Below the pieces are notes generated by a model, which worked only from the letters and a program-made list of their open reading frames with translations, was not told the DNA's origin and did no database searches. This document shows positions 1,549 through 50,220 of a DNA stretch of 64,000 bases, one piece after another; position 1 is the first letter of the stretch; each line of letters opens with the position of its first letter. The stretch is taken from NCBI RefSeq assembly GCF_004122095.1, contig NZ_SAWZ01000002.1:434001-498000 (forward strand), given 5' to 3'. The position numbers and the translations under genes were made by a program. Source of the stretch: Pseudoxanthomonas composti (GTDB lineage Bacteria > Pseudomonadota > Gammaproteobacteria > Xanthomonadales > Xanthomonadaceae).

Positions 1549-1640
1549 AGGAACGAGTAGCGGCTTTGCCGCTAGGAACGAGGAACGAGGAGGGGGGATC
1601 TTCACTCGTTTCTCGTTCCTCTCCACTCGTTTCTCGCTCC
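1549..1640. repeat. Inverted repeat of iterated GGAACGA units, rpsR-rplI copy
   Basis: The left arm carries AGGAACGAG, then a small hairpin TAGCGGCTTTGCCGCTA, then AGGAACGAGGAACGAG. The right arm carries ACTCGTTTCTCGTTCCTC and TCCACTCGTTTCTCG. The arms are reverse complements in outline, so the transcript could fold into a long stem between two co-transcribed ribosomal genes. Compared with the cleaner copies at 9939 and 34925, the middle TGGAG of the left arm seems to be replaced by the small hairpin. No coding potential is seen. Confidence 0.7.
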
Positions 1641-2230: not shown

Positions 2231-2341
2231 AACGAGGAACGAGGAACGAGGAACGAGGAACGAGTGAAAGCCGGAGCTCGCGCCTGACTGGCTCCTCGCA
2301 CTCGTTCCTCGTTCCTCTCCACTCGTTCCTGCGCTCGTTCC
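2231..2341. repeat. Inverted repeat of iterated GGAACGA units, rplI-dnaB copy
   Basis: Five tandem AACGAGG units (2231-2266) are followed after about 30 bases by CACTCGTTCCTCGTTCCTC and TCCACTCGTTCC (about 2299-2341), the complementary arm. It belongs to the same family as the copies at 1549, 9939 and 34925. It lies between rplI and dnaB and immediately before a DnaA-box-like site. There is no long T tract, so it does not look like a simple intrinsic terminator. Confidence 0.7.
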
Positions 2342-7325: not shown

Positions 7326-7342
7326 GTCGGACATTGTCCGAC
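7326..7342. promoter_or_regulatory. Perfect 17-base palindrome in the ssrA promoter region
   Basis: GTCGGACATTGTCCGAC has two perfect 8-base arms around one base. It starts 8 bases upstream of the tmRNA 5' end (minus strand), next to a -10-like TCCTAT. It could be an operator, or an upstream structure for the other strand. No regulator can be named from sequence. Confidence 0.4.
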
Positions 7343-7474
7343 CCGGGCAAGTGTAGGGGCGGGCAGGGCGGGTCACAAGTTTTGCGACTGGCGCTGGTTA
7401 CCATGGCTTCATTGGCCCACCACAGCAGGGGACTGCGTTGGGCCTTGCAGATCCACCCATGGAGAGGCTGGAGC

Positions 7475-9934
7475 ATGGCAGGCAAGAAGAACGCACCCAA
7501 GGCAGGGGCGGCCACGGGCAAGACGCCCACCGCCGGCAAGACGGTCACGCGCAAGAAGGCGCCAGCGGCGGCCGCCAGCAACGACGACCCCGACGCCCTG
7601 GCCCGGACCGGCTACCTGGCCGCCGCGCAGGGGCAGGCCAAGACCGTGGTGTACATCCATGGCATCGGCAACAAGCCTAGCGCCGACGTGCTGCGCTGCC
7701 AGTGGGACAAGGCGTTGTTCGGGCGCTCGATGGGCGAGCGCACGCGCCTGGCCTACTGGGTCAACCGGACGCGCTATCCGACACCGGAGCCAGCCACCTG
7801 CGCCGATCGCGACGAGGGCCCCAGCGTGAACCAGGCCGAGCAGCGCATCCTCAGCGCCCTGGGGGTGATGCCGGAACGGCGTGACCTGGGGGAGCTGGTC
7901 GATGCCTTGGCCGAGTCGGCCCGCGAAAAGGCCATGCTGGAGCAGATGCTGCGCGAGCTGCAGGCGCAGGCGCCGGCGGGTGTGGGCCCCAGCGCGCAAG
8001 GCCTGTTTACCGGCATCAACGAGCTGCTGCTGCGACTGGTGTCGGCGGCGCTCCTGCAGGACGTGCATGACCTGTTCTTCGTGCCGGAGCGGCGCGAGGC
8101 GATGGAGCGCAGCCTGCGCGAGCGCCTGGAATCCGGCGGCGGTCCGTTCGTCGTGGTGGCGCATAGCCAGGGCTCGATGATCGCCTACGAGGTGCTGCGC
8201 AAGCTCGACCCGGCCCGCTGCAAGGTCAGCCTGCTGGTCACCATCGGCTCCCCGCTGGGCCTGCCCAGCGTGCGCAGCATGTTCAACCAGTGGACCAAGC
8301 GGAAGAAGCTGCCGTTCCCGGCCTGCGTGGAGCGCTGGGTCAACGTGGCCGACACCCGCGACCCGGTCGCGCTGGATGCGGATCTGAGCGATGACATCGA
8401 AGGCGCCGCCGGCCGCTTCGTCAATCACAAGGGGCCGGGCATCAACCCGGACGGGCCGCGCAACCCCCATTCGGGCTCGGGTTACCTGTCCTTGCCGGTG
8501 GTGCGCGCGGAGGTGCGGGCGGCGGTGGGGGTGGGGTTCGACCAGCCGGTGTCCAGCCCGGTGCTGATCAAGGACCTGTCCGACCAGATGGAGTCGCAGC
8601 ACGCCGATTTCCGCCACCAGGTGCTGGTGGAGCTGGATACCTTGCCCGCTGGCATGACCAGCGTCGGCGAGGCCAAGGCCGATCTGATCGCCCACATCCG
8701 GACGCTGGCCGCCGCCCAGACCGGCCTGGGCGGGGAGGCGCTGGATGACGCCATCGGCCTGGAAGACGGCCTGCAGCGCTTCGTGGCGGCACGGCTGACG
8801 CGATTTGAGATCGAGTCGCTGCGCGATGTCTACCGCAGCCTGCATTTCAAGCGCATGTGGCGCAATGCGGGCAAGCGGGCGCTGCTGCATCAGTCGCGCA
8901 GCGTGATCCAGGCCGACGCGGCGCAGGTCGCCTACCGGGCCCTGGGCGAACGGATCGGATGGGCGGTGCTGGATACGGGCATCGCTGCCGGGCATCCGCA
9001 TTTCTTTGAGCGCAACGTGCGCGACCAGGTCGCGATGCAGTGGGATTGCACCGTGCGCGGCCGGCCCAGGAAGCTGACCCGCGCCGACGGCGATGCCTTC
9101 GCGCGGCTGGACCGCAACGGCCATGGCACGCACGTGGCGGGCATCATCGCCGGGCGCTGCAATGCGCCGCTGCCGGGCGGCGAGCGCGGCCAACGCCTGC
9201 AATACACCGCGGTCGCGCCCGATGCCACCTTGTACGGCTTCAAGGTGCTGGACGATGCCGGCTACGGCCAGGATGCGTGGATCATCAAGGCGCTGCAGCA
9301 GGTCTCCGAGCTCAACGAGCGCTCGGGCCAGCTGGTGATCCATGGCCTCAACCTCAGCCTGGGCGGCGCGTTCGATCCGGAAAGCTATGGCTGCGGCTTC
9401 ACCCCGCTGTGCAACGAACTACGCCGGCTGTGGCGGCAGGGCGTGGCGGTGGTGCTGGCCGCGGGCAACGAAGGGGTGGCCTGGCTGATGCAGGGCGATG
9501 GCCAGGCCTATCCGGCCAACATGGATCTGACCATCGGCGACCCAGCCAACCTGGAGGAGGCCATCGCCGTGGGCTCGGTGCACAAGTCCAACCCGCACAC
9601 CTACGGCGTGTCGTATTTCTCCTCGCGTGGGCCGACGGTCGATGGCCGCCGCAAGCCGGACGTGGTCGCCCCGGGCGAGAAGATCGTCTCGGCCCACCAT
9701 GGCTACCGCGTGCGCGACCCGGCGACCTGGATGGTGGAAATGAGCGGCACCAGCATGGCCGCCCCGCACGTGTCCGGACTGCTGGCGGCGTTCCTGTCGG
9801 TGCGGCGCGAGTTCGTCGGCTCCCCGGACCGCATGAAGCAGCTGCTGCTGGAGCACTGCACGGACATCGGTCGCGACCGCTACATGCAGGGCTGCGGCAT
9901 TCCGAACCTGGTGAAGATGCTGGCGGCGACTTAG
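7475..9934 (+). CDS. Fusion protein: alpha/beta hydrolase domain plus subtilisin-like (S8) protease
   Basis: An 819-residue protein with a Lys/Ala/Pro-rich N-terminus (residues 1-40) and no signal peptide. Residues about 55-310 look like an alpha/beta hydrolase: VVYIHGIGNKP, the nucleophile elbow AHSQGS (Ser231), then an acidic residue in NVADTRDPVAL and NPHSG as a candidate His. Residues about 490-815 are a subtilase with Asp500 (VLDTG), His550 (NGHGTHVAG) and Ser760 (SGTSMAAPH). Both active sites look complete. I chose the ATG at 7475 because it follows CTGGAG; the frame is open to 7334 but that part overlaps the ssrA promoter. The target is unknown, and the absence of a signal peptide suggests the cytoplasm. 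Confidence 0.85.
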   Translation: MAGKKNAPKAGAATGKTPTAGKTVTRKKAPAAAASNDDPDALARTGYLAAAQGQAKTVVYIHGIGNKPSADVLRCQWDKALFGRSMGERTRLAYWVNRTRYPTPEPATCADRDEGPSVNQAEQRILSALGVMPERRDLGELVDALAESAREKAMLEQMLRELQAQAPAGVGPSAQGLFTGINELLLRLVSAALLQDVHDLFFVPERREAMERSLRERLESGGGPFVVVAHSQGSMIAYEVLRKLDPARCKVSLLVTIGSPLGLPSVRSMFNQWTKRKKLPFPACVERWVNVADTRDPVALDADLSDDIEGAAGRFVNHKGPGINPDGPRNPHSGSGYLSLPVVRAEVRAAVGVGFDQPVSSPVLIKDLSDQMESQHADFRHQVLVELDTLPAGMTSVGEAKADLIAHIRTLAAAQTGLGGEALDDAIGLEDGLQRFVAARLTRFEIESLRDVYRSLHFKRMWRNAGKRALLHQSRSVIQADAAQVAYRALGERIGWAVLDTGIAAGHPHFFERNVRDQVAMQWDCTVRGRPRKLTRADGDAFARLDRNGHGTHVAGIIAGRCNAPLPGGERGQRLQYTAVAPDATLYGFKVLDDAGYGQDAWIIKALQQVSELNERSGQLVIHGLNLSLGGAFDPESYGCGFTPLCNELRRLWRQGVAVVLAAGNEGVAWLMQGDGQAYPANMDLTIGDPANLEEAIAVGSVHKSNPHTYGVSYFSSRGPTVDGRRKPDVVAPGEKIVSAHHGYRVRDPATWMVEMSGTSMAAPHVSGLLAAFLSVRREFVGSPDRMKQLLLEHCTDIGRDRYMQGCGIPNLVKMLAAT

Positions 9935-9938
9935 GGTG

Positions 9939-10342
9939 AGGAGTGAGTGGAGAGGAGTGAGGAGTGAGCAAAGGCCGGAGCGGGGCGGAACTCATGCTCT
10001 GGCAGCGCTGGCTCGATTCGGTTCACATGCTTGCTGGCGCGGGCCGCGGTGCAAGTGATGTGCTGATGTCGGCATCGAGCTCAGCAGAGCAGGTGTCTGA
10101 GCGCCTGCAGAAACCGTCCCAGGATCAGCCTTGAACCTGTGAGAGCGGCTTCAGCCGCGAAGGGCTTGCCCCTCCTGCTTCCGGGTCTCAGGGGCAGGCC
10201 ACTTCGCGGCTGAAGCCGCTCCCACAGCGGGATTTCGAGAGAGTTTTCCCACAATCAGCTTTCACGGGTTACTTTTGCGAGCGGACGTCGAAGCGCGCGC
10301 CCACCGCCTTCACTCACTCCTCACTCCTCTCCACTCACTCCT
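9939..10342. repeat. Long inverted-repeat element of iterated GGAGTGA units
   Basis: The left arm 9939-9968 (AGGAGTGAGTGGAGAGGAGT and GAGGAGTGAG) is the exact 30-base reverse complement of 10313-10342. The arms enclose 344 bases that hold a separate REP-type hairpin and no credible gene. The arm has the same pattern as the copy at 34925, with GT in place of AC at each variable position. The element fills the gap between the fusion gene and the convergent smpB. Confidence 0.75.
10137..10227. repeat. REP-type paired palindrome (GAGCGGCTTCAGCCGCGAA)
   Basis: CTGTGAGAGCGGCTTCAGCC at the left and its near-complement TTCGCGGCTGAAGCCGCTCC at the right face each other, with an inner stem GGGCTTGCCCCT / AGGGGCAGGCC. 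The whole 91 bases can fold into one long hairpin. This motif type is a known kind of repetitive extragenic palindrome in pseudomonads and xanthomonads. It sits inside the larger inverted repeat 9939-10342. Confidence 0.7.
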
Positions 10343-10347
10343 GGCCC

Positions 10348-10842
10348 TCAAGCATCGCGATTATGCTGCCGCATCACCCGCTGCTTGTCGCGCTGCCAGT
10401 CGCGCTCCTTGGCCGCATCGCGCTTGTCGTGGGTCTGCTTGCCTTTGGCCAGGGCCAGTTCCAGCTTGACCTTGTTGCCCTTCCAGTACATCGCGGTGGG
10501 GATGAGGGTGTAGCCGTCGCGCTCGACCTTGCCGATCAGCACGTCGATCTCGCGACGGTGCAACAGCAGCTTGCGGGTGCGGCGATCGTCGGCCACCACG
10601 TGGGTGGAGGCCTGGATCAGCGGCGTGAACTGGGCACCGAACAGGTACAGCTCGCCCTGGCGCACCACCGCATAGCTTTCGCCGATGTTGGCGCGGCCGG
10701 CGCGGATGGACTTCAGCTCCCAGCCCTGCAGCGCCAGCCCGGCCTCCATGCGCTCCTCCAGGTGGTACTCGTGACGCGCGCGTTTGTTCAGCGCGATGGT
10801 CCCGGTGCTGTTTGCTTTATCCTTGGAGGGTTTCTTGGCCAT
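10348..10842 (-). CDS. smpB: SsrA-binding protein SmpB
   Basis: A 164-residue basic protein with the SmpB core: [35 protein letters not shown] and [18 protein letters not shown], and a Lys/Arg-rich C-terminal tail ([18 protein letters not shown]) that enters the ribosomal decoding site. It carries tmRNA to stalled ribosomes. The ATG at 10842 was chosen over an upstream GTG because [11 protein letters not shown] is the usual start of the family. It is divergent from ratA, as in many gammaproteobacteria, and lies near ssrA. Confidence 0.96.
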
Positions 10843-10898
10843 CCGCACATTGTCGCCGATGGCCCGGATGCATGCGAGCCCGACAACCACGAGTCCCG

Positions 10899-33794: not shown

Positions 33795-34920
33795 ATGATC
33801 GAGCTCAACCCCATCCGCCAGCGCATCGCCGACCTCCAGGGGCGGCTGGATTCGCTACGGGGGTATCTTTGACTACGATGCCAAGCGCGAGCGCCTGGAA
33901 GAAGTAAGCCGCGAGCTGGAAAGCCCCTCCATCTGGGACAACCCGGAGTACGCGCAGAAGCTGGGCCGCGAGCGCGCCCTGCTGGACAAGACCGTCAACG
34001 GCATCCGCGACATGAGCGAGGGCCTGACCGGCGCGTCGGAGCTGCTGGAACTGGCGGAGATGGAGGAAGACGAGGAGACCGCCGTCGCCGTGCAGGCCGA
34101 TGTCGAGCGCTTTGCCACCTCCGTGGAGAAGCTGGAGTTCCAGCGCATGTTCTCCGGGCAGATGGACGCCAGCAATGCCTTCGTCGACATCCAGGCCGGC
34201 GCCGGCGGCACCGAGGCCCAGGACTGGGCCGAGATCCTGCTGCGCATGTACCTGCGCTGGTGCGAGTCGCGCGGGTGGAAAACCGAGCTAATGGAAGTCT
34301 CCGGCGGCGAAGTGGCCGGCATCAAGTCCGCCACGCTGCGCGTGGAAGGCGACTTCGCCTACGGCTGGCTGAAGACCGAGACCGGCGTGCACCGCCTGGT
34401 GCGCAAGTCGCCGTTCGACTCGGACAACCGCCGCCACACCAGCTTCACCTCGGTGTTCGTCTCCCCGGAAGTGGACGACAACATCGACATCGACATCAAT
34501 CCGGCCGACCTGAAGACCGACGTGTACCGGTCCTCCGGCGCCGGCGGCCAGCACGTCAACAAGACCGAGTCGGCCGTGCGTATCACCCACGTGCCGACCG
34601 GCATCGTGGTGGCCTGCCAGACCGGACGCAGCCAGCACCAGAACCGCGACAACGCGATGAAGATGCTGGCCGCCAAGCTCTATGAGCTGGAAATCCAGAA
34701 GCGCAACGCCGAACGCGATGCCGTGGAGGCGACCAAGTCCGACATCGGCTGGGGCAGCCAGATCCGCAACTACGTGCTGGACCAGTCCCGCATCAAGGAC
34801 CTGCGCACCGGCATCGAGCGCTCCGACACGCAGAAGGTGCTCGACGGCGACCTGGACGAGTTCGTCGAAGCCAGCCTGAAATCCGGCCTGGAAGCGGGCT
34901 CCAAGCGGGTTGACGCTTGA
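33795..34920 (+). CDS. prfB: Peptide chain release factor RF2, with programmed +1 frameshift
   Basis: Translation starts at the ATG at 33795 ([20 protein letters not shown]), reaches CTT at 33867 followed by an in-frame TGA (33870-33872) and must shift +1 to read GAC from 33871. The joined product is about 374 residues. The class 1 release factor core is complete, with the GGQ motif in [18 protein letters not shown] and the SPF stop-codon recognition motif in [15 protein letters not shown]2 terminates at UGA and UAA, and low RF2 favours the shift. It precedes lysS, as in many proteobacteria. Confidence 0.97.
33859..33873 (+). promoter_or_regulatory. RF2 +1 frameshift site
   Basis: GGGGGTATCTTTGAC: a Shine-Dalgarno-like G tract three bases before CTT-TGA-C. 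This is the same arrangement as in E. coli prfB and makes RF2 synthesis autoregulated. Confidence 0.95.
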
Positions 34921-34924
34921 GGGC

Positions 34925-35066
34925 AGGAACGAGTGGAGAGGAACGAGGAACGAGCAGATCCCCGATCCTGACCGCCACGCCGTTCCTCACCGTTTGAATA
35001 CCTTCGGCCCCACGCCCGCGCAATCCAGCTTCCTCACTCGTTTCTCGTTCCTCTCCACTCGTTCCT
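34925..35066. repeat. Inverted repeat of iterated GGAACGA units, prfB-lysS copy
   Basis: Left arm 34925-34954 (AGGAACGAGTGGAGAGGAAC and GAGGAACGAG) and right arm 35037-35066 are reverse complements at 29 of 30 positions, around an 82-base spacer. The arm equals that of the element at 9939 once AC is exchanged for GT at each variable dinucleotide. The right arm ends 12 bases before the lysS start, so a folded transcript could affect lysS translation. Confidence 0.75.
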
Positions 35067-35078
35067 AAGACGCCCCCC

Positions 35079-36587
35079 ATGACCGACCAGCCCACCACGC
35101 CCCCCGACGAGAACAGCCTGATCGCCGAGCGGCGTGGAAAGCTCACCGCGCTGCGCGGGCAGGGCATCGCCTTTCCCAACGATTTCAAGCGCGACACCTA
35201 CGCGGGCGATCTGCAGGACGAATTCGCCGATGACGAGCGCTACACCGCCGAGGCGCTGGAAGGCCTGGAGCGGCAGGTCAGGCTGGCCGGCCGCCTGATG
35301 GCCAAGCGGGTGATGGGCAAGGCCAGCTTCGCGCAGATCCAGGACGAGTCCGGACGGATCCAGCTCTTCCTGCAGGGCAATGCGCTGGGCGAGGCCTACA
35401 CCGCGTTCAAGGGCTGGGACGTGGGCGATATCGTCGCGGTGGAAGGCGGCCTGACCCGTACCAAGACCGGCGAGCTGTCGGTCAAGGCCTCGGCCATCCG
35501 CCTGCTGACCAAGTCGCTGCGCCCCCTGCCGGACAAGTGGCACGGCCTGAGCGATGTCGAGCAGCGCTACCGCCAGCGCTACGTGGACCTGATCGTGACG
35601 CCGGAGGCGCGCGAGGTCTTCATCAAGCGCTCCAAGATCATCCGCGCGATCCGCTCCTGGCTGGACAACCGGCGCTTCCTGGAAGTGGAGACGCCGATGA
35701 TGCATTACATCCCGGGCGGCGCCACGGCCAGGCCCTTCACCACCCACCACAATGCGCTGGATCTGCAGCTGTACCTGCGCGTGGCGCCGGAGCTGTACCT
35801 CAAGCGCCTGGTCGTGGGCGGCCTGGAGCGCGTGTACGAGATCAACCGCAACTTCCGCAACGAAGGCGTGTCCACCCGGCACAACCCCGAATTCACCATG
35901 CTCGAGCTGTACGAGGCCTACGCCACGTACCACGAGGTGATGGACCTGACCGAGGCGGTGATCCGCGATACCGCCCAGAGCGTGCTGGGCACCACCCAGG
36001 TGGAATGGGACGGCGCGCAGATCGACCTGGCCCCGGCCTTCCGCCGCTGGCGCATGGATGAGGCCGTGCGCCACCACAATCCGGAAATCACCGCCCAGGA
36101 CTGCACCGACCGCGATGCCCTGCTGCGCCACTGCGAGCGCCTGAAGATCAAGGTCAAGCCGTCCTACGGCTGGGGCAAGCTGCTGCTGGAGATCTTCGAG
36201 GCCACCGTCGAGCACACCCTGGTGCAGCCGACCTTCATCACCGACCACCCGGTCGAGGTCTCGCCGCTGGCCCGCGCCAGCGACACCGAGCCGGGCTATA
36301 CCGACCGCTTCGAGCTGTTCATCAACGGCAAGGAGATCGCCAACGGTTTCTCCGAACTCAACGATCCTGAGGACCAGGCGGCCCGCTTCCGCGCCCAGGT
36401 CGATGCCAAGGAGGGGGGCGACGACGAGGCGATGCACTTCGACGCCGACTATATCCGTGCGCTGGAGTACGGCATGGCGCCGACCGGCGGGCTGGGCATC
36501 GGCATCGACCGCCTGGTGATGCTGCTGACGGGCACGGCCTCGATCCGCGACGTGCTGCTGTTTCCCTACATGCGTCCGGCAGGCTGA
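35079..36587 (+). CDS. lysS: Lysine--tRNA ligase (class II)
   Basis: A 502-residue class II synthetase. The OB-fold anticodon domain includes [20 protein letters not shown]. Motif 2 lies in [20 protein letters not shown], and motif 3 in [16 protein letters not shown]. It charges tRNA-Lys. Length matches E. coli LysS (505). It is preceded by prfB and followed by 300 bases before rpfG. Confidence 0.97.
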
Positions 36588-50004: not shown

Positions 50005-50220
50005 GGTGGTGGATGGAAGGGCGTCATCCACCCTACGTGCTGGGCCGGTACGCCCGCGGTGTTGGTCTTGCGGCGGTGGTGGATGAGAAGAGCGTCATCC
50101 ACCCTACGGGCTTGCCCGCGGTGTGGTTTGCCGCGGTGGTGGATGGAAGAGCGTCATCCACCCTACCGTCGACCCCAGGTGCACGTCGTAGGGTGGACAA
50201 CGCGAAGCTTGTCCACCGGG
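50005..50220. repeat. Array of four GTAG-type REP palindromes
   Basis: Three copies of GGTGGTGGATG...GCGTCATCCACCCTAC (about 50005-50036, 50075-50107 and 50135-50166), and one in the opposite orientation, GTAGGGTGGACAACGCGAAG...CTTGTCCACC (50188-50216). Read from the GTAG end, each is GTAG-GGTGGAYRACGC-loop-TCCACC, a REP hairpin with a GTAG head as described for Stenotrophomonas. No REP-associated transposase gene is in the window. The whole gap 49885-50545 is otherwise empty except for hairpins. Confidence 0.72.

Follow-up and report, generated by a model that had tools for sequence, protein, structure and literature searches.

The 64,000-nucleotide stretch of the Pseudoxanthomonas composti genome analysed here (the window) contains four intergenic loci at which short arrays of heptamers face each other as inverted repeats, and we report that such arrays, in this genome and across its family, are tied to the gene for the S23 protein (PF05635). 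An evolutionary association of the gene with the arms is well supported, and we think it probable that each pair of arms forms the terminal inverted repeats of a small selfish element whose full copies carry S23, the window loci being its REPIN-like relatives devoid of an open reading frame. The arms of the window occur in two flavours, GT and AC, named after the dinucleotide that varies within the heptamer, and are arranged as follows, with the gene names smpB, prfB and lysS read by eye from translations.

9939 to 9968, plus strand: GT-flavour arm with the units AGGAGTG, AGTGGAG, AGGAGTG, AGGAGTG and AG, 4 nt past the stop of the open reading frame at 7334-9934.
9969 to 10312, no strand: spacer of 344 bases containing a different palindrome, resembling a repetitive extragenic palindrome (REP), at about 10139-10226 (by eye).
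10313 to 10342, minus strand: GT partner arm, complementary to the first at every position and separated by 5 nt from the stop of a convergent, smpB-like gene at 10348-10890.
34925 to 34954, plus strand: AC-flavour arm with the units AGGAACG, AGTGGAG, AGGAACG, AGGAACG and AG, directly past the stop of the prfB-like gene at 34012-34920.
35037 to 35066, minus strand: AC partner arm, complementary at 29 of 30 positions, upstream of the lysS-like gene starting at 35079.
1549 to 1589, plus strand: looser AC arm, interrupted by a short hairpin (tagcggctttgccgcta).
1599 to 1640, minus strand: looser AC partner arm, in which the variant units GGAGCGA and GAAACGA are present.
2231 to 2264, plus strand: five AC heptamers in tandem, facing the arm at 2301-2341.
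2301 to 2341, minus strand: AC partner arm reading GGAACGA, GTGGAGA, GGAACGA, GGAACGA, with an outer GGAACGA.

Recomputation returned the geometry that the initial annotation had described: the GT arms are complementary at 30 of 30 positions and the AC arms at 29 of 30, the left arms at 9939 and 34925 differ only by GT versus AC at three dinucleotides (offsets 4, 5, 18, 19, 25 and 26), and that annotation is likewise correct on the spacers, 344 and 82 bases long, and on the looser copies (1549-1640, 2231-2341). None of the four loci carries a PF05635 open reading frame, and all lie between protein-coding genes and not in a 23S rRNA helix. An Rfam scan of the window matched a tmRNA alone, with no known RNA family at the arms. 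The palindrome nested in the spacer of the GT element (window 10139-10226) is an inverted, REP-like one, gagcggcttcagccgc...gcggctgaagccgctc.

The arms belong to a large dispersed family. In the 4.33-Mb P. composti genome (G000; other G numbers denote genomes of relatives), the purine/pyrimidine arm pattern AGGARYGAGTGGAGAGGARYGAG matched 79 times and its reversed control not once, and a looser arm, X-NNNNGA-X-X with at most one mismatch, gave 331 hits against 16 in the control, so that the excess over chance set beforehand as the test of the family was found with both patterns. Each arm consists of four heptamers, X, a variable unit, X and X, where X is AGGAACG or AGGAGTG; the second unit varies (GTGGAGA, GCGGAGA, GCGCAGA, GTGGGGA and others) while the remaining three are constant. 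Anatomy was read in 1.162 Mb, or 27% of the genome, comprising 57 non-random segments mostly picked around arm hits, with genes called by our own codon-usage script. There, 159 of 205 arrays are exactly four units long, and the three X dinucleotides are identical in 157 of 171 arms, where permutation predicts 32. Arms of CC and TT flavour are also present, rarer than AC and GT; CC and TT units contain GGG, whereas AGGAACG and AGGAGTG contain no such tract. The arms are direct heptamer arrays and have no palindromic REP cores. In sequence, the AC and GT units are variants of a single frame, RGGANNS. This frame covers AGGAACG, AGGAGTG, GGGACCS, GGGATTS and GGGAATS and thereby also takes in the GGGAATC repeats of Xanthomonas. 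The claim that the dinucleotides change together held in P. composti, where freeing them gave 81 arms (57 AC/AC, 23 GT/GT, one AC/AA and none mixing AC with GT), and gave way in part in some sister species: across 13 further genomes of the genus, AC and GT are mixed in 11 of 83 listed arms (6 of 20 in G035, 3 of 16 in G025, 1 of 6 in G031 and 1 of 2 in G004).

The link to S23 emerges when the family is surveyed. P. composti has a single PF05635 match, C19:389046-389351, which lies outside the window inside a GT-armed element, C19:388915-389432; the sole solved sequence relative of its protein is 2GSC, XCC0516 of Xanthomonas campestris. Among 38 genomes of the genus 20 carry PF05635 (23 loci), and among 198 genomes of 54 genera in the family 84 do, from 38 genera, 64 of the 84 having one match. 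We read 71 of the 124 family matches, namely all 23 of the genus and 48 of the 101 from other genera, asking for a four-heptamer array scoring at least 24/28 within 330 bp of the gene. Arrays flank S23 on both sides at 57 of these 71 loci and on one side at 4, compared with 1 (both sides) and 29 (one side) of 600 random positions taken from loci of G000, its genus relatives, G082 and G067; two-sided loci number 61 at a threshold of 23/28 and 26 at 26/28. Both flanks share a flavour in 47 of the 57 two-sided loci (9.4 expected by permutation, maximum 18), and the nearest relative of an S23 protein in another genome has arms of the same flavour in 39 of 46 cases (9.6 expected, maximum 21). Genomes with PF05635 also tend to be rich in arms: at least 20 hits occur in 59 of 84 genomes with the gene and in 8 of 114 without it. 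Although the genomes are mutually related and permutation corrected for this at the genus level only, none of 5000 permutations within 25 genera was as extreme as the observed association, and 23 of the 25 genera agree with it. In G035 an S23 element with CC arms sits at a gene end that is free of any element in G000, G011, G007, G009 and G029; a further three genomes carry a 2-kb insert at the same gene end, read only at the two ends of the insert. We do not claim the few arm hits of G032 as its two S23-flanking arms, whose units fall outside the RGGANNS search pattern.

The association extends to plasmids of another phylum. A search of plasmid proteins for the S23 domain returned 21 records, 20 cyanobacterial and one from Gemmatirosa, of which two (L326 and L341) look like the same element; all 21 loci were read, the gene ends in L330 and L343, and one end (the far one) in each of L339 and L344, being set by hand. 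Four-heptamer arrays lie on both sides of S23 in 11 loci, on one side in 7 and on neither in 3, which amounts to 29 of 42 sides compared with 21 of 300 control windows, and arrays with periods of 5, 6, 8 and 9 occupy 1, 0, 6 and 0 of the 42 sides. The plasmid heptamers, among them AGGTGAC, AGGGTGT, TAGGGAG and ACAGGGA, differ from the units of Xanthomonadaceae. In three cyanobacterial plasmids (L325, L333, L334), S23 is annotated between CRISPR-associated genes, twice between cas6 and cas4 and once between cas10 and cmr3.

Within the P. composti sample the arms face each other across a gap: 50 neighbouring pairs face inward, at spacer lengths of 18 to 462 bases, and none outward, and in 48 of the 50 both arms share a flavour (20.6 expected, maximum 31 over 5000 permutations). 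When 46 elements were folded, a mean of 91% of left-arm bases paired to the right arm, and the arms are thus predicted to be able to form a long RNA stem. This pairing and the shared flavour are what one would expect if, as the initial annotation suggested, the stem were selected and the arms co-varied to preserve it, an explanation that we regard as highly improbable. The arms do pair on folding, but none of 15 X-unit variants is common to the partner arm, so that no compensatory change appears within a flavour (variants are few and power is weak), the second unit is matched between arms no better than under permutation, and 71 of 171 arms have no partner by the pairing criterion used. If AC and GT are instead two subfamilies, coupled variation follows without compensatory selection. 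The initial annotation also raised gene conversion of the element as a unit; conversion between the two arms is disfavoured by the same observations, since the second unit is wholly identical in only 3 of 24 pairs, which is not above permutation, and we reject both arm-to-arm conversion and hairpin template switching on the ground that partners have neither second-unit nor X variants in common. In 16 AC pairs the second unit is even slightly less matched than when permuted. We set aside a first signal of such anti-matching because its regions had been picked around GTGGAGA arms, and in a list unselected for the second unit it was still weak (0.02 for AC, 0.14 for GT).

The position of the arms relative to genes is equally constrained. 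An arm midpoint falls within a called gene in 8 of 171 cases, which bears out the earlier description of the family as intergenic; it is also, as described, dispersed and defined by its arms. Among 49 classified pairs, 31 lie between co-directional genes, 17 between convergent genes and one between divergent genes, although 125 of 607 gaps of at least 60 bases are divergent. On their outer side the arms come to within a few nucleotides of stop codons: where the outer neighbour is a stop codon, 67 of 102 arms lie no more than 15 nt from it, and 33 are 3-7 nt away, whereas in the same segments all 44 REP-like control sequences lie at least 34 nt away, a distance measured to the palindrome core and not to the outer REP edge. 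At start codons, 12 of 67 arms facing one end 4-7 nt from it (C1:670851, C3:111995, C20:80713 and others), and in the right arms so placed a pyrimidine-rich stretch occupies the expected Shine-Dalgarno position.

Tight placement next to stop codons, X units conserved while the second unit drifts, and the association of gene with arms could all be read to mean that S23 is a regulator that binds the arms, as DNA or as RNA, at sites selected near gene ends, with nothing mobile. We consider this quite improbable in light of the relatives, in which flavour and copy number differ sharply among sisters and orthologous gaps hold other flavours, other repeats or nothing. The X-NNNNGA-X-X arm occurs 331 times in G000, 16 times in G004 and 4 times in G017, its nearest relatives by a lysS fragment, and not at all in G011. 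The general RGGANNS pattern, whose counts are pattern hits in which one long tandem is counted many times, gives 167 hits in G004, 185 in G017 (mainly TT and AT among the matches listed) and none in G011, G007 and G009; it matches in 134 of the 198 family genomes and 47 of the 54 genera, in some at chance level, and at least 20 times in 67 genomes. The exact AC arm turned up, when named genomes were scanned, in 28 stretches from Pseudoxanthomonas, Lysobacter, Luteimonas and Stenotrophomonas daejeonensis, and a 22-mer of the arm had no match in 24 genomes from other families of the order. Orthologous gaps, compared by eye, hold different flavours, different repeats or little: the prfB-lysS gap has heptamer arrays in 8 of 30 genomes, the smpB gap measures 17, 41 and 32 bases in G011, G007 and G009 versus about 410 in G000, and one further gap holds GT arms in G000, AC arms in G035, GGGACCS in G004 and none that we could see in G011.

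The relatives also contain long pure tandems: more than 90 GGGAATC units in G012 (from C1:326878 onward), more than 20 GGGATTC units in G017 (C1:1220424-1220598), with a block switch from TT to AT units, and thirteen CACTCCT units in G018. These tandems fit an account in which the arms are simple repeats born by slippage, changing in place and kept because purine-rich repeats or their hairpins would benefit the RNA or DNA, as in the G-quadruplex interpretation of the Xanthomonas repeats, with S23 a bystander; so does the report that the Xanthomonas repeats are intergenic, transcribed and favoured at four units (PMC4692102). We judge this account unlikely, as it predicts neither a distinct second unit nor a flavour shared across up to 462 bases nor arrays flanking S23, and since AC and GT arrays keep four units without a GGG tract, canonical quadruplexes cannot explain the number four. 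The very long tandems of G012 and G017 might in their own right serve as fast-evolving markers.

Taken together, these observations lead us to favour, with reasonable confidence, a small selfish element bounded by paired heptamer arms. Its ends would comprise four RGGANNS heptamers each, with one dinucleotide flavour per element, and the fact that a few copies carry the S23 gene suggests that the hundreds of unexplained short repeats are reduced relatives of a single selfish element. We infer that S23 confers mobility, the protein acting in trans on ends of its own flavour to spread or maintain the element, with flavour as the recognition code, and that RNase III would cut the stem out of transcripts, as in published 23S rRNA intervening sequences; such cutting, we propose, would make insertions between genes tolerable.

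Several observations weigh against this interpretation, the sharpest being the spacers. Recent copies of a mobile unit should have a common interior, yet for 33 of the 50 spacers the 1.16 Mb sampled contains no matching sequence elsewhere, and what the other 17 match is mostly a nested arm or some other repeat. An arm pair together with its spacer is therefore no simple copy of a single master, and the initial suggestion of an element copied as a unit finds no support where the spacer is concerned. Either decay or exchange of the interior is rapid, or some as yet undescribed process generates arms site by site. The next difficulty is disagreement between the flavour of the resident gene and that of the arms: G144 has CC arms at its S23 gene yet mostly TT arms in the 140 kb sampled, G191 has CT at the one of its two PF05635 genes that we read versus TT arms, a partial mismatch, and P. 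composti has no AC-flavoured PF05635 though AC arms are its commonest. At the threshold used, 10 of 71 PF05635 loci have no array on either side, and beside the 8 gene-less genomes rich in arms, 13 of the 84 gene-bearing genomes have fewer than 5 hits. The link between S23 clade and flavour is equally expected because gene and arms are physically linked, and the tandem of more than 90 units in G012 means that slippage acts as well. No target-site duplication, such as a MITE of a classical transposon would leave, was apparent by eye in the flanks or in the small number of gaps that we set against those of other species. To our knowledge PF05635 is not a known recombinase.

A broader hypothesis, which we hold only tentatively, is that a single S23-driven selfish superfamily unites the 23S rRNA intervening sequences with the heptanucleotide repeats found in Xanthomonadaceae and in cyanobacteria, with flavour as a protein-arm recognition code. 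S23 would then be an Avd-like four-helix-bundle protein acting in trans, and its likeness to a partner of reverse transcriptases makes it possible that the elements spread by way of RNA; if so, this would be a kind of mobile element without a described mechanism. We know of no description of the role of either the xanthomonad and cyanobacterial heptanucleotide repeats or the S23 protein, and linking the two gives each a testable partner. Four-unit arms without G tracts speak against a G-quadruplex account of the four-unit preference, and mobilisation by S23 would support the old idea that the open reading frame of intervening sequences encodes a factor for mobility (Ralph and McClelland, 1993, as cited in PMC4990558).

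Two repeats of other kinds were seen alongside this family. Within the window, positions 50052-50166 hold about two repeats of a 59-base unit with the consensus GCCCGCGGTGTTGGTCTTGCC..., and elsewhere in the P. composti genome (L031, C18:352323-352646 plus flanks) a Y1 transposase gene is flanked, by eye, by the different repeat aaccggggtcagagtgcagttt.

The initial annotation recognised no named family, but named families are related to the arms: the GGGAATC heptamer repeats of Xanthomonas (Rehm et al., 2015; PMC4692102) and, by way of S23, the intervening sequences of 23S rRNA (PMC4990558). Rehm et al. describe GGGAATC in Xanthomonas and GGGGA(C/T)T in Nostoc, the Xanthomonas repeats forming 70-75 convergent inverted pairs per genome, near stop codons on the sense strand and rarely between divergent genes. 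Our arms resemble them in heptamer period, four units, intergenic position, convergent pairing, scarcity between divergent genes and the frame RGGANNS, and differ in the AC and GT units of P. composti, which contain no GGG tract, in strict flavour coupling and in the distinct second unit. The passages of that paper on which we draw explain the repeats by G-quadruplexes and report no link to a mobile element, whereas the arrays here flank the S23 gene. Our literature searches, by arm letters and by topic, found no genome-wide link between heptamers and S23, though searching was partly swamped by primers.

The Coxiella intervening sequence carries S23, has a 28-bp terminal stem of inverted ends cleaved by RNase III in vitro, and bears, ahead of the open reading frame, three copies of GACAGAT and a degenerate fourth heptamer, an array that differs among strains (PMC4990558). 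Elements of this kind, in Coxiella and Leptospira, share with ours an S23 open reading frame preceded by tandem heptamers, complementary inverted ends some 28 bp long and a selfish character; unlike them, ours are intergenic and not in rRNA, have hundreds of gene-less relatives and use another heptamer sequence. The long stem predicted for ours would be a candidate for RNase III cutting. PF05635 is reported to resemble Avd of diversity-generating retroelements in sequence and structure (PMC10053308). In organisation our elements resemble REPINs, which accompany a RAYT (REP-associated tyrosine transposase) gene present in one copy (Bertels and Rainey, 2011; PMC3116915): both systems usually have one gene per genome beside its own repeats, several flavours and many gene-less inverted doublets, but ours has heptamer-array arms where REPINs have palindromic REPs, and PF05635 where they have a Y1 transposase. 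We reject a RAYT as the driver, for the one PF01797 (Y1 transposase) gene of P. composti has no heptamer array in its 3.3-kb locus, where by eye other repeats adjoin it.
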